DNA from: Halopseudomonas litoralis
GTDB taxonomy: Bacteria > Pseudomonadota > Gammaproteobacteria > Pseudomonadales > Pseudomonadaceae
Assembly: GCF_900105005.1 (NCBI RefSeq)
Contig: NZ_LT629748.1
Location: 3,472,001-3,536,000, forward strand
Length of the DNA stretch: 64,000 bases
Direction of reading: 5' to 3'
A program made the position numbers and the translations under genes. This document shows, one piece after another, positions 1,379 to 10,743 of this stretch (positions within the stretch are counted from its first letter, which is position 1; each line of letters starts with the position of its first letter). Under the pieces are notes generated by a model, which searched no databases, was not told the origin of the DNA, and worked only from the letters and a program-made list of their open reading frames with translations.

Positions 1379-2071
1379 GTGCCCATGCCCTATAAAAAAC
1401 TGAAGAGTGCTGACGATGCCATTCAACAGATCGTTGATGGTTACAAGCACTTCCATGAAGAGGTGTATCCCCAGCAGGAAGAGTTATTCCGGAAACTGGC
1501 CTTCGAGCAGACCCCCAAGGCCATGTTCATTACCTGCGCCGACTCCCGCGTTGTGCCCGAGCTGATCACCCAGAGCTCGCCAGGCGACCTGTTCGTCACC
1601 CGCAACGTCGGTAATGTGGTACCACCCTACGGCCAGATGCTCGGCGGTGTCTCCACTGCCATCGAATATGCCGTGGTAGCCCTGGGTGTGAAACACGTGA
1701 TTATCTGCGGTCATTCCGACTGCGGCGCCATGAAAGCCGTGCTTGACCCAGCCCAGTTGAAGGGAATGCCCACGGTAAAATCCTGGCTGCAGCATTCGGA
1801 AGTCGCCAAGATAGTGGTGCAGGAAAACTGTGGCTGCGCCGATCACACTACCCTCGGCATCCTTACCGAGGAGAACGTGGTTGCCCAACTCGGTCACCTG
1901 GCCACCCATCCTTCGGTTGCTTCACGTCTGGCCCGCGGCGATCTGTTCATCCACGGTTGGGTTTACGATATCGAAACCAGCCAGATCCGCGCCTACGATA
2001 CCGAGAAGGGCGAATTCCGCCGCATCGGTGATGGTCCGCTGCCGATGGCGACGCCCAGACCACGCTACTAG
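1379..2071 (+). CDS. Beta-class carbonic anhydrase
   Basis: This enzyme interconverts CO2 and bicarbonate in the cytoplasm. The zinc site of the beta class is complete: CADSR (Cys53, with the Asp55-Arg57 dyad) and GHSDCG (His112, Cys115), counted from the GTG at 1379. The length of about 230 residues is normal. Two starts are possible, GTG 1379 or ATG 1385; neither has a strong ribosome binding site, and the ATG is slightly favoured. Lying next to a biotin carboxylase partner gene it could supply bicarbonate for carboxylation, but that link is only inferred from position; a terminator hairpin separates the two genes. Confidence 0.93.
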   Translation: MPMPYKKLKSADDAIQQIVDGYKHFHEEVYPQQEELFRKLAFEQTPKAMFITCADSRVVPELITQSSPGDLFVTRNVGNVVPPYGQMLGGVSTAIEYAVVALGVKHVIICGHSDCGAMKAVLDPAQLKGMPTVKSWLQHSEVAKIVVQENCGCADHTTLGILTEENVVAQLGHLATHPSVASRLARGDLFIHGWVYDIETSQIRAYDTEKGEFRRIGDGPLPMATPRPRY

Positions 2072-6539: not shown

Positions 6540-6694
6540 TGGGTGTAGCGCAGGCGAGACTGGACATGGTAAGGAAACCTGTCGTCGAGCAGGCGCTCGA
6601 CAACCTTGCCCCAGGCTCTACTACAATCCCCGGCGAGCCGGGGATTGTAGTAGAGCCTGGGAAAGTCTGGAAATGTACCTGACCCCAATTTTCC
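6540..6694 (+). repeat. Intergenic palindrome-rich repeat, copy B
   Basis: This short version of the repeat is 155 bp. It shares GGTGTAGCGCAGG, the GTCGAGCAGGCGCTCGAC palindrome, the CCCCAGGCTC arm and the end box GTACCTGACCCCA with copies A and C, but lacks their middle segment. It lies just after the acyl-CoA ligase and carries the longest perfect palindrome of the family. Confidence 0.75.
6610..6661. repeat. 52-bp perfect inverted repeat inside copy B
   Basis: The left arm 6610-6634 (CCCAGGCTCTACTAC... to ...CCCCGGC) is exactly complementary to 6637-6661, with only GA between them. As RNA it would fold into a very stable hairpin and, with no T-run after it, could act as a roadblock or processing site rather than a classic terminator. 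Confidence 0.8.
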
Positions 6695-6812
6695 TCTCTC
6701 GAAAAGTGTGTTTCTCCTCCCAATTCTTAACGTCGGCTGTTGCCCAGTTGCACGGAGCGAGTACCATCCTCGCCCTACTATCTGAGCGGACTTGGTAATA
6801 GGACGTAAATGT

Positions 6813-7391
6813 ATGTCTAAATGGATTGGACTGTTATTACTGACAGTTGCCGTTGGAGCAAACGGCCATCAAACCTGCAACAACTCGGTCCTTGAAACCG
6901 AGTTGCCCGTATCCAAAACCGTAGAAGGTCAAACTCTGGTTCTCGCTGGACCAGCGAGGCTTGAATTGAACCCGGGCGAGACGGCAATGACTATCGCCCA
7001 CCTTCCGGAAATGCTGATCGTCAAATATCCGGATGGCGCTTCCCTTTCGCACCGCTGGATGGACGAATCAGAAATGCGCAAGAATCACTCCAGTAAGCTT
7101 GCCTTCGCTGATTTTATTCGCCTGGTATTCCGGATGAACATGCATGATGCCTCAAATGCCGATCGCAAAGAGGCTGACGCCGTCTGGGACGCTATGACTT
7201 CGGGATGCATAAACGCCAGGCATTACCATCTTTCAGACACCGATATTTTCACCTACTCGCAGACCCGAGCGAGCGGGGAACGCTACCACGCATTTTTCAT
7301 TCTCGATGACGGTATCGTTCATTACCTCGATATCCGCGGTAACGATGCGCTTGCAGATAATGTCTTAACCACTTTCAATAAACAGGATTGA
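6813..7391 (+). CDS. Unrecognised exported protein
   Basis: I do not recognise this protein. The ATG at 6813 follows an AGGACG ribosome binding site and gives 192 residues; an in-frame start at 6792 is less likely. The first ~20 residues (KWIGLLLLTVAVGANG) look like a signal peptide, so the product is probably periplasmic. The remainder is polar, with two cysteines (TCNNS near the new N terminus and SGCIN), which could form a disulfide. The next gene starts 4 bases after its stop, so the two are co-transcribed. Both lie between repeat copies B and C, which suggests acquired or strain-specific DNA. Confidence 0.6.
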   Translation: MSKWIGLLLLTVAVGANGHQTCNNSVLETELPVSKTVEGQTLVLAGPARLELNPGETAMTIAHLPEMLIVKYPDGASLSHRWMDESEMRKNHSSKLAFADFIRLVFRMNMHDASNADRKEADAVWDAMTSGCINARHYHLSDTDIFTYSQTRASGERYHAFFILDDGIVHYLDIRGNDALADNVLTTFNKQD

Positions 7392-7394
7392 GCC

Positions 7395-7715
7395 ATGAGT
7401 CCTTATGAACAAGACGACATCCGCTATATTCTCAATCGCATCTATTCCCCTGCAATTGCTGGCCGCTGGGAAGTAAACGAACGCGTCGCGGAGACTCTGC
7501 TTGAGATGAGTAGCGCGCTGAGCAATTGTTCAAAGCTGATGGAGCTGGCGCCCCGGCCGATGCCACCCGGCGCCAGACCGCTCCGATATCTTTCAAAAGA
7601 GGCGCGAAAGGCACTGATGCGCCAGTTGAAAGAAGATGACACTTATATTTCCTGCGTTAAGGTTGGGGCGATCGCTTATCGCTCACAATTCGAAGCTGCA
7701 AGCCGGGGTCTATGA
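7395..7715 (+). CDS. Unrecognised small cytoplasmic protein
   Basis: This 106-residue protein has no recognised domain. It is charged and probably helical, without a signal peptide or membrane segment. Its start is 4 bases after the stop of the exported protein gene, with the binding site GGATTGAG overlapping that stop, so the two form a small operon. An effector/partner or immunity-type pairing is imaginable, but nothing in the sequence shows it. Confidence 0.5.
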   Translation: MSPYEQDDIRYILNRIYSPAIAGRWEVNERVAETLLEMSSALSNCSKLMELAPRPMPPGARPLRYLSKEARKALMRQLKEDDTYISCVKVGAIAYRSQFEAASRGL

Positions 7716-7982
7716 GTAAACAGCCGTTAAGCTGACGTAACTCCTCTTGGCAGAATAGCCACCTCTTCCTACATGCTAGTCGCCGAGTTGGTCGTCCGGA
7801 ACGCGCCACTGATGCCGACCCTTTGTACTTGGCGCAATAAAGCCAAATCCGAAGGACGCTCCGTGCCAGGTCGCTCAGCCAAACCCGCAGGAAGATGTAC
7901 CTGGACTCCTTTTTCCCAAAACTAATGGGCCTCCACGAAGGCTCAGGCGCCACCCAAGCCAAGCAGATGATCACCGCACCGG
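7716..7982. other. Non-coding stretch without recognisable content
   Basis: No convincing gene, hairpin terminator or promoter was seen here. A minus-strand open frame of 120 codons crosses it but overlaps the end of the preceding gene and has basic, low-quality composition, so I treat it as a chance frame or a decayed remnant. Confidence 0.4.
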
Positions 7983-8207
7983 AGTGTAACGCGCCTGCGC
8001 TACGCCAGCACGCCGGCACGCCAGCGACTGTAATGGCTGCTCATCCTCCTGTCGCTCGACAACCTGCCCCAGGCTCGGCCACGCAGCTAATACCCGTCTG
8101 AACCAATCTGTATATACCTGACCTTTTCCTATGGCCGGAAACAGCAATCCCCGGTGAGCCGGGGAAAGTCAGATCAGGTTATGGAAATGTACCTGACCCC
8201 ATTTTCC
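7983..8207 (+). repeat. Intergenic palindrome-rich repeat, copy C
   Basis: This copy has the same module order as copy A: GTGTAACGCGCCTGCGCTACG, CGCTCGACAACC, CCCCAGGCTCGGCCACGCAG, TTTTCCTATGGCCGGAAAC, a hairpin CCCCGG-TGAG-CCGGGG, and the end box GTACCTGACCCCATTTTC. The right arm of its hairpin is shortened relative to copy A. It ends 3 bases before the stop codon of the broken pilin gene. Confidence 0.75.
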
Positions 8208-8210
8208 TTC

Positions 8211-8299
8211 TTAAGGAGTGGTAGTCGCCTTAAAACTACCAGTCATCCAGTTTGCGCGGGTATCTGCGCACGACCATGCAGTCACAATACCGGCGTTAG
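8211..8299 (-). pseudogene. 3' end of a type IV pilin gene cut off by the IS5 insertion
   Basis: Read on the minus strand and joined to the sequence beyond the IS (removing one TTAG copy), this fragment continues the pilin frame as NAGIVTAWSCADTRANW, then MTGSFKATTTP and a TAA stop (8211-8213). The Trp-Ser-Cys followed about 15 residues later by GSFK resembles the C-terminal disulfide loop of type IV pilins (W-x-C ... GSCK). The second cysteine seems to have become Phe (TTT), a one-base change from TGT. That is an inference from the family pattern. Confidence 0.8.
8296..8299. repeat. Left target-site duplication TTAG
   Basis: TTAG directly abuts the left IS end and is repeated at 9490-9493. 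It matches the YTAR preference of the IS5 group. Confidence 0.9.
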
Positions 8300-9489
8300 G
8301 GAAGGTCTGAAAAAGACTTCCTGAAAAGGTAAAATGCGTCAGCGCCATTTTCGAGACCACCGCATGAAACAGATGAGCTTTGCAGACGCCGAATACGCTG
8401 GTAAACGTAAGCAGACCCGCCGTGAGCGCTTTCTGCTGGAAATGGATCAAGTGGTTCCCTGGAAGCCATTGCTGGCGCTGATCGAGCCGCACTATCCCAA
8501 GGGCGAAGGTGGTCGACCTGCTTACCCGCTCGACGCGATGCTGCGAGTTCATCTGATGCAGAACTGGTTTGGGTACAGCGATCCAGCGATGGAAGAAGCG
8601 CTGTATGAAACCACCATCTTGCGACTCTTCGCGGGCCTTCAACTTGATCGCATTCCGGATGAAACCACTATTCTCAAATTCCGTCGGCTGCTGGAACGCT
8701 ACGGCCTGTCCACGGCGTTGTTCGAAGTGGTCAATCGTTACCTGGGTGAGCACGGGCTAATGCTGCGCCACGGCACCGTGGTCGATGCAACCATCATTCA
8801 TGCACCCAGTTCGACCAAGAACAAAGAAGGTAAGCGCGATCCCGAGATGCATCAGACCAAGAAGGGTAACCAGTATTATTTTGGCATGAAGGCCCACATT
8901 GGCGTTGATGCTGAGTCAGGGCTGGTTCACAGTCTCGTGGGGACGGCGGCCAATGCGGGCGATGTTACTCAGGTAGACAAGCTTCTGCATGGCGAAGAAA
9001 CCCATGTATGCGGTGACGCCGGCTATACCGGCGTTCAGAAACGGGATGAACACAAAGGGCGCAAGCAGGTGGTCTGGTCGATTGCGATGCGCCCAGGCAA
9101 GCTCAAGACATTGAGCAAAACCAAGCTGATCGAGAAAGGCTTGCGCCGAATCGAGCGGGCCAAAGCCAGTACACGAGCCAAGGTCGAGCATCCGTTTCGA
9201 GTGATCAAATGCCAGTTCGGATTCACCAAGGTGCGCTACAAGGGCCTGGCGAAGAACACGGCCCAGTTGCATACCTTGTTCGCCCTGGCCAACCTATGGA
9301 TGGCCCGAAAACAGCTGTTAAGTGCAGGATAAATCCGCCCGGAGTACTGGGTACAGCGGCCTGGATGGCCGAAAAGGGGCTGCAACGCGCTGAAAACGCG
9401 ACTGAGGGCGATGAAATCGTTCCTGAAATGTTTTTTTTGTGAGTCGAGGTCATAATCGCCGCCCATATGGCCGGTATTTCAGACCTTCC
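8300..9489 (+). mobile_element. Complete IS5-family insertion sequence, 1190 bp
   Basis: The ends are exact 13-bp inverted repeats, GGAAGGTCTGAAA at 8300-8312 and its complement at 9477-9489, and both outer sides carry TTAG. A single intact transposase fills the element. The length of 1190 bp, the GGAAGG ends and the TTAG duplication fit the IS5 group of the IS5 family. Perfect ends, intact duplication and an unbroken gene point to a recent, probably still active insertion. It split a type IV pilin gene on the opposite strand. Confidence 0.95.
8364..9332 (+). CDS. IS5-family DDE transposase
   Basis: The protein is 322 residues from the ATG at 8364 (an in-frame ATG at 8334 lacks support). The catalytic triad is visible: Asp141 in GTVVDATII, Asp218 in VCGDAGYTG and Glu275 in KVEHPFRVIK, the last being the Y/H-x-R-E-type region of the family. 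The N-terminal part contains the RPAYPLDAMLRVHLMQNWFG and IPDETTILKFR segments typical of the IS5 N-terminal domain. No frameshift or stop interrupts it, so it should be functional. Confidence 0.95.
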   Translation: MKQMSFADAEYAGKRKQTRRERFLLEMDQVVPWKPLLALIEPHYPKGEGGRPAYPLDAMLRVHLMQNWFGYSDPAMEEALYETTILRLFAGLQLDRIPDETTILKFRRLLERYGLSTALFEVVNRYLGEHGLMLRHGTVVDATIIHAPSSTKNKEGKRDPEMHQTKKGNQYYFGMKAHIGVDAESGLVHSLVGTAANAGDVTQVDKLLHGEETHVCGDAGYTGVQKRDEHKGRKQVVWSIAMRPGKLKTLSKTKLIEKGLRRIERAKASTRAKVEHPFRVIKCQFGFTKVRYKGLAKNTAQLHTLFALANLWMARKQLLSAG

Positions 9490-9493
9490 TTAG
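9490..9493. repeat. Right target-site duplication TTAG
   Basis: This TTAG directly follows the right IS end and is identical to 8296-8299. Confidence 0.9.
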
Positions 9494-9855
9494 CAAGCGG
9501 ATCAGGTGTAAGTACAACTTCCGGTTGAGTGCTGCCACCTAAAGCTGCGCCCCGTTGCAGTAACTTTGCCGGTTCCATCAACAAACACTGTAGCCACATA
9601 TTGACTTAATTCATTGGCGGTTGCCGCCGTCGCTGTGCAAGAGGCATAGTCAGCGGCTGTATGATCCGCTGCTCCTTGGTTTATCTCTTGGACGCAAGTC
9701 CGGGCAGCACTCGCAGCGAATACTATCTCAGATATCTTAGCCTTATTCTTATAATCCTGATAAGCCGGCAACGCTATCGCCGCCAGAATCCCAATAATCA
9801 CCACCACGATCATCAGCTCAATAAGAGTAAAACCTTTCTGCATTTGAGCTTTCAT
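9490..9855 (-). pseudogene. 5' part of a type IV major-pilin-like gene, frameshifted and IS-interrupted
   Basis: The start [18 protein letters not shown] is a classical type IVa prepilin: short leader cleaved after Gly8, Phe at +1 of the mature protein, Glu at +5 (Glu13) and a hydrophobic N-terminal helix. The gene reads normally to about residue 102 (KVTATG). There the GGGG run (plus-strand CCCC, 9550-9553) puts it out of frame, so it stops at 9502 after 117 residues. Dropping one G restores [20 protein letters not shown], which runs straight across the IS junction into the fragment at 8211-8299. The restored product would be about 149 residues, the usual pilin length. It lacks pil assembly neighbours, so it is an orphan pilin. 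Confidence 0.88.
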
Positions 9856-10159
9856 TTCTCAACTCTATTGTTTGTAAGATAGCTGATCAGGAGCATCCGG
9901 ACGCCATGCACAACCTCGCCAAGTTGCATATAAAGGGTATAGGCTGCCCAGGGATGAAACCAAGAGGCTGATGTGGCTGGCCAAGGCGGCTTCATGCGGT
10001 CATCCCATCGCTGCGCAGCAGGTGGCGGCGCTGCATTCGCGGCAAAAGCCGGAGCAGGGCGAGTAGCGCACCGGTCCACGTTTGAGCCTGCGTCTGCCGC
10101 CGCTCGGCCAGGCATCGTCGCTCTGTCGGTATCAGGCTGGTTCGGCGGGCACTTTAGGT
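9856..10159. other. Intergenic DNA between the pilin remnant and the purE leader
   Basis: No gene is supported here. A minus-strand frame of 87 codons ends at 9852, overlapping the pilin start, but it shows no family features. The part next to the pilin presumably holds its promoter; two GG-N-GC pairs were examined for a sigma-54 site but both have the wrong spacing by one base. Confidence 0.4.
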
Positions 10160-10231: not shown

Positions 10232-10251
10232 CGTCATCAAGAGGCACGACA

Positions 10252-10743
10252 ATGACCGCACTGGTTGGCGTGATCATGGGCTCCAAGTCCGACTGGTCTA
10301 CCATGAGCCACACGGCAGACATGCTGGAGCAGTTGGGCATCCCCTTTGAAGTGAAGGTGGTCTCCGCACACCGCACTCCCGACCTGCTGTTCGACTATGC
10401 TGAACAGGCGGACGGTCGGGGCATCGAGGTGATCATTGCCGGTGCCGGTGGCGCAGCCCACCTGCCGGGTATGTGTGCGGCCAAGACCCACCTGCCGGTG
10501 CTGGGCGTGCCGGTGCAATCGTCCATGCTCTCGGGCGTCGACTCGTTGCTGTCCATCGTGCAGATGCCCGGCGGTGTGCCGGTGGGTACACTGTCGATCG
10601 GCAAGGCCGGTGCAATCAATGCGGCGTTGCTGTCAGCCAGCATTCTGGGCGCCAAACATCCGCAGTATCATCAGGCGTTGAAGGATTTCCGTACCCAGCA
10701 GACCGATACCGTGCTGGATAATCCGGACCCACGTCAGGCTTGA
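10252..10743 (+). CDS. purE: N5-carboxyaminoimidazole ribonucleotide mutase
   Basis: PurE converts N5-CAIR, made by PurK, to CAIR in purine synthesis. The 163-residue protein begins at ATG 10252 with [18 protein letters not shown], carrying the GSxSD phosphate-binding motif, and continues with SAHRTPD and the glycine-rich [11 protein letters not shown], all typical of class I PurE. The longer in-frame opening at 10165 runs through the leader hairpin and is not a likely start. purK begins 10 bases after its stop, so the two form an operon. Confidence 0.97.

Follow-up and report, generated by a model that had tools for sequence, protein, structure and literature searches.

The pilin gene beside purE in the 64,000-nucleotide stretch of Halopseudomonas litoralis DNA that was analysed (the window) is almost certainly a pseudogene, and what is left of an accessory pilin module (Table 1). 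A reading made from the sequence alone had described a decaying orphan pilin gene hit by an insertion sequence. This description held, because its three lesions (the insertion, a frame break and a changed cysteine) are real. Two further ones came to light: the promoter and intergenic region are gone, and so is most of a partner gene; both this loss of the promoter region and the partner remnants at 9885-10054 had been overlooked. In its original state the module would have consisted of a major-pilin gene with a sigma54-type promoter and a divergent gene, here called the partner, for a protein with a predicted winged-HTH (MerR/Xis-like) domain and a Sel1 part. The partner protein probably bound palindromes between both genes and in this way controlled the pilin. 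Comparison with sister loci shows that the region between the genes and the greater part of the partner are missing. The partner remnant and the pilin are both frame-broken, conserved pilin residues have changed, and an IS5-family element, presumably arriving late, has split the pilin. The window copy is thus expected to yield no functional pilin, and the pilus of the cell would use one of three intact pilins encoded elsewhere in the genome.

Table 1. Features of the broken pilin locus and its surroundings, in window coordinates.
Feature	Position	Strand	Remarks
Carbonic anhydrase gene, conserved flank	1379..2071	+	PF00484
Block missing between carbonic anhydrase and purE in relative L026	2194..10080		pilin wreck at right edge
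Pilin gene, 3' piece with stop codon	8211..8299	-	last loop Cys to Phe, conserved Pro to Thr
Target-site duplication TTAG, left copy	8296..8299
IS5-family insertion sequence	8300..9489	+	1190 bp, 13-bp perfect terminal repeats
IS5-family transposase, 332 aa	8334..9332	+	NF033581 E 1e-103; DDE_Tnp_1 and DUF772
Target-site duplication TTAG, right copy	9490..9493
Pilin gene, 5' piece	9502..9855	-	117-aa open frame, prepilin N-terminus, ends out of frame; N_methyl PF07963 E 5.6e-10
Frame-break interval versus intact relatives	9541..9551	-	frame change between P0002 matches
Homology junction	9883..9885		pilin 5' flank homology ends, partner-gene 3' end homology begins; blastn to L062, L102, L061, L094, L096
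Partner-gene remnant (divergent winged-HTH/Sel1)	9885..10054	+	last ~55 codons, two frames; tblastn; blastn 82% L094, 80% L096
purE, conserved flank	10249..10743	+	tblastn matches in relatives

The element inside the pilin gene is an ordinary IS5-family member of the NF033581 type. The IS5-type DDE transposase scores 346 bits (cut-off 140), and terminal inverted repeats and a 4-bp YTAR target duplication, which together characterize the family, are both present at 8300-9489. The earlier claim of an IS5 element splitting a type IV pilin gene was borne out in its length and its flanking TTAG copies, and the terminal repeats have 13 identical bases. The genome contains 14 matches to the element, 13 of them at least 97% identical (one of these truncated) and one at 79%. 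Perfect 4-bp duplications surround 12 of the 14; one match has unequal flanks, and one is truncated with its flanks unread. Because these 12 copies duplicate 4 bp and all flanks seen in the genome fit YTAR, 8300-9489 represents a normal insertion and not a chance arrangement. The window element is identical to three other genomic copies, which argues for a late arrival.

The two host pieces were read and compared separately, and the sequence was never joined or mended. For comparison we used the best 119 listed of 7994 relatives (at least 52% identity, the window's own row set aside). Among the matches listed, the closest intact relatives are P0002 and P0003, both of 156 aa and with 75-77% identity over the 5' part. 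P0002 aligns with the 117-aa frame over its residues 1-109, as far as about 9541, and with a second frame (about 9551 to 9492) over its residues 106-125. From residue 126 on P0002 matches the 3' piece, so that it is covered gaplessly across the insertion by the window pieces. P0003 matches the 3' piece with its residues 125-152 (tblastn, 75%, E 3e-13 in a two-record database). The frame break is therefore real, since both relatives pass from one frame to the next within the 5' piece and then continue on the 3' piece. The sequence-only reading had left its reconstruction open to contradiction by the 3' ends of relatives; in this check, run on protein relatives, P0002 and P0003 agree with the 3' piece and the claim was not refuted. 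It had also placed the frameshift, as a lesion independent of the insertion, in the GGGG run at 9550-9553. The break itself stands; these alignments place it within about 9541-9551, an interval at whose edge the run lies.

With a homopolymer so near, the frame break might be an assembly error while the insertion and the other lesions are true, but we consider this improbable. The flanking purE, purK, DUF3299 and hydrolase genes are open and of full length, and the genome is complete in a single contig of 3,987,842 bp with a completeness of 100 and a contamination of 0.22. The other lesions stand regardless: a sequencing error at the break would give back neither promoter nor partner nor cysteine, and the pseudogene reading keeps those lesions.

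The 3' piece has clearly decayed. The final loop cysteine, which the earlier reading had correctly seen as phenylalanine, is cysteine in 117 of 117 aligned relatives (best 119 listed of 7994; two rows gapped), and the proline replaced by threonine in the window is likewise proline in all 117 aligned listed relatives. Two of the five columns conserved to at least 90% in this piece are thus changed, a number equalled only by the two gapped rows among the 119. In the 5' part, three of 42 columns conserved at 90% depart, as many as in two of the 119 listed relatives, and at the level of at least 95% the departure is restricted to one of 37 columns, with 17 of the 119 listed relatives departing as much or more. 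These counts indicate clear decay of the 3' end and only slight decay of the 5' part, where the decay is therefore young or mild.

Type IVa major pilins of the PilA type (PF00114/PF07963), such as P0002 and P0003, have a prepilin leader, a conserved N-terminal helix, and in the relatives a W-x-C ... P-G-S-C loop motif. In the window the prepilin N-terminal motif is present (PF07963, see Table 1; TIGR02532), but the gene is split, does not have one continuous frame (the break lies inside the 5' piece and the insertion follows), has lost the two-cysteine C-terminal disulfide loop with its last cysteine, has no promoter and does not adjoin pilB. The 5' piece has kept an open frame and its prepilin signal is intact, which counts against a pseudogene. 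Together with the mild departures of the N-terminal part, this would fit a functional short pilin, in which the 117-aa frame encodes a genuine minor pilin whose end is unusual. However, 111 of the 119 listed relatives end their alignment to this frame by residue 106 and the other eight share only zero to five of up to 12 residues beyond. In addition, the matching frame continues on the far side of the insertion, and the promoter region is missing. We therefore regard a working short pilin as very unlikely and the pseudogene as the reading to follow.

The loss upstream of the pilin is seen from DNA homology. In blastn comparisons, the sister pilin loci L062 and L102 are matched up to 9883, 28 bp upstream of the pilin ATG, and from 9885 the homology shifts to the 3' end of the partner gene at about codon 149. 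Because the homology of the pilin flank jumps here directly into the partner 3' end, the whole intergenic region with the promoter is missing, as are about three quarters of the partner gene. Beside the window pilin the partner survives only as a remnant, truncated and frame-broken, and its closest DNA matches among the loci compared are the 3' ends of L094 and L096. All 17 other pilins scored have a box like TGGCAC-N5-TTGCW 46-74 bp before the start (8-11 of 11 positions, the start used for L100 being off by 3 bases). For pilA in Pseudomonas, such boxes are established sigma54 promoters. Within 300 bp upstream of the window pilin the best score is 7 of 11, and a sigma54-like box and thus a promoter like that of the related pilins is absent; in the control, 205 of 3600 shuffles reached at least 9 anywhere in the region. 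No palindrome sites are found in the 450 bp upstream of the window pilin, where their region is missing. A reversible state, in which excision of the element or slippage in the G run toggles the pilin on and off, is hardly conceivable, because the loss of promoter and partner and the residue changes are not reversible that way and a four-base run is short for phase variation, even though the break interval borders on the G run and three other copies of the element are identical to that in the window.

The window pilin was rejected as the only pilin of the genome. Three intact orphan pilins that keep the last cysteine are located at 1639 kb, 2335 kb and 3846 kb, and each adjoins a partner gene. 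Those at 1639 kb and 2335 kb each stand in divergent orientation to an adjoining open gene whose product has 153-161 residues (the longer open frame at 1639 kb). In the 3846-kb cassette (L063:8664-11150) the intact pilin is separated from a frame-broken partner by one of the other genomic copies of the window's IS5 element, and the palindrome array and the pilin promoter box are still on the pilin side of the element. The 1639-kb module (L061:8822-10027), with intact pilin and partner, is situated between phage tail and endolysin/Rz (spanin) genes, a typical site for phage-carried extra genes. The pilB and pilC genes are side by side in the genome, the gene following them we take as pilD from its sequence, and two shorter motor ATPases encoded in tandem at 3714 kb we take as pilT/U. 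No pilin match was found in the 18-kb stretch L089 around pilBCD, which reaches 6.8 kb upstream of pilB, and a pilin hidden beside pilBCD was accordingly rejected. DUF4394 and apparent anti-sigma and sigma genes are found there in place of pilA (L089:9465-18000, genome 479-488 kb). The second, intact pilA that the earlier reading had suggested to look for near pilBCD is thus not in this stretch, while intact pilins do exist elsewhere as the three orphans. Across the genus a pilin lies within 2 kb of the pilB start in 29 of 32 pilB-bearing genomes (37 searched; tallied by eye), the exceptions being this genome, G018 with none in 7 kb, and G016 with a pilin 2.8-3.8 kb away.

The N-terminal domain of the partner protein is predicted to be a winged-HTH, closest to the Xis, NmlR and BldC folds, and thus resembles the DNA-binding domains of MerR/Xis/BldC type. 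The C-terminal part matches Sel1 proteins and resembles these repeat proteins. We know of no described protein uniting a winged-HTH and Sel1 beside a pilin, and a search for literature joining Sel1 with pilin found nothing relevant. In the family, the partner was found in nine of 398 genomes at 15 places (E 1e-10). A divergent pilin adjoins it at 11 of these 15 chromosomal loci, including the 3846-kb locus with the element in between. Two loci (L094 and L096) have the partner without a pilin, and the other two are at contig ends and not judgeable. In L094 and L096, which belong to two species, the pilin-less partner is next to an apparent RNA-helicase gene. Of ten partner loci in IMG/VR, a set of predicted viral contigs that may include host DNA, nine have a pilin within 1.5 kb (eight divergent, one on the same strand). 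Contig L121 holds the same genes as the 1639-kb locus; L127 and L128, as well as L122 and L123, look alike and are therefore not independent. Two queries for the partner had no match in 50,697 records of annotated phages. Five proteins compared to an anti-phage model library gave no match either. Partner matches were obtained in 23 plasmid records, of which four cover at least 80% of the query, and the pilin adjoins the partner on all four plasmids inspected, namely the four with most of the query covered. Three of them, 6.6-6.9 kb in size, are from Antarctic Pseudomonas and the fourth is from Aquincola, hence from a gamma- and a beta-proteobacterium (pA62H1, pA46H2, pA6H3 and Aquincola plasmid A at loci L131, L132, L134 and L133, respectively). 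The three Pseudomonas plasmids also carry integrase and RelE-type toxin genes.

Arrays of palindromes of the form TGGCACA-N8-TGTGCCA or TGTCACA-Nx-TGTGACA lie upstream of the pilin in 10 of the 11 chromosomal modules, the motif being derived from these same cassettes and controlled only by the pilB-linked set and a genus-wide pattern search; the exception, L062, has degenerate palindromes and scores 0. At most two of 100 shuffles hold a palindrome site. The palindromes are absent from all 13 pilB-linked pilin upstreams (from 11 of the 29 genomes having one; the start position is approximate for G030b and G001b), and their role as general pilin-promoter elements, for example for a binder like PilR, was rejected. 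They are also absent from both partner-only loci, L094 and L096. Five of the nine pilin-bearing viral loci score (L121, L126, L127, L128 and L129), and L122 to L125 score 0, with palindromes of another form in L122 and L123 and none seen in L124 and L125. In the 37 genus genomes the exact first form occurs at seven places, six of which are pairs 32 bp apart in three cassettes, and the reversed pattern occurs nowhere. The seventh site, in G023, is tied to no cassette. On the three Pseudomonas plasmids both genes are on the same strand and palindromes of this kind are placed between partner and pilin. They thus precede the pilin rather than the partner, which suggests control of the pilin promoter. 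Judged by position, specificity and predicted fold, the partner probably binds the palindromes.

The main text of PMC6896180 describes the pilA regions ('PIL modules') as the places where otherwise near-identical Antarctic plasmids differ, and states that two of three plasmids raise the adherence of E. coli DH5alpha; neither 'Sel1' nor 'tetratricopeptide' occurs in that main text. The PIL modules of pA6H3, pA46H2 and pA62H1 resemble the module described here as an accessory pilA on small plasmids; in the plasmid sequences inspected, a homologous Sel1-type gene lies just upstream. They have partner and pilin on the same strand and both open, whereas the window copy is broken and its remnant divergent.

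The broken gene alone is ordinary genome decay. Its value lies in the recurrent module that its neighbourhood exposes, a pilin together with its probable own regulator and operator, found at several chromosomal sites, in prophage-like DNA and on plasmids. The module is repeated and partly mobile, the window contains a dead copy of it, and a function can be proposed for it. It is possible, although we hold this only tentatively and think it somewhat less likely than not to be correct, that the window preserves the fossil remains of a mobile module for pilin replacement. Such a module, with a major pilin of its own and a dedicated winged-HTH/Sel1 regulator that reads the promoter palindromes, would be carried by prophages, small plasmids and islands, which would so change the pilus of the host; in this genome, where the pilBCD-linked pilA is gone, travelling modules may supply the pilin. 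If true, such a change could, for example, keep out rival pilus-dependent phages or affect attachment or the uptake of DNA, and by swapping the host pilin mobile elements could change the receptor of pilus-dependent phages.

The pilin wreck is part of a larger insertion. In the relative L026 the carbonic anhydrase and purE flanks are contiguous where the window has 7.9 kb extra, and carbonic anhydrase is directly before purE in 12 of 18 loci of relatives, which were found with the DUF3299 gene two genes beyond purE (62-91% identity, one 41%) and are mostly named Halopseudomonas or Pseudomonas. The 5' pilin piece has no match at E 1e-4 in these 18 purE-region loci (7.5-20.5 kb), by which a synteny of pilin and purE in relatives is rejected, and an uninterrupted pilin copy at the same locus was not found in the relatives' loci compared. 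Apart from the pilin wreck, response-regulator/TPR and ATPase genes and a gene for an acyl-CoA ligase lie in the block, together with two short genes without a Pfam match. The latter are adjacent (6792-7391 and 7395-7715) and have no PADLOC match either. Three direct-repeat copies are present in the block (2091-2355, 6578-6691 and 7967-8205), whose core GGAAATGTACCTGACCCCATTTT has no further occurrence in the genome with one mismatch allowed. The repeats are partly derived from the carbonic anhydrase-purE spacer and bound the gene blocks of the insertion.
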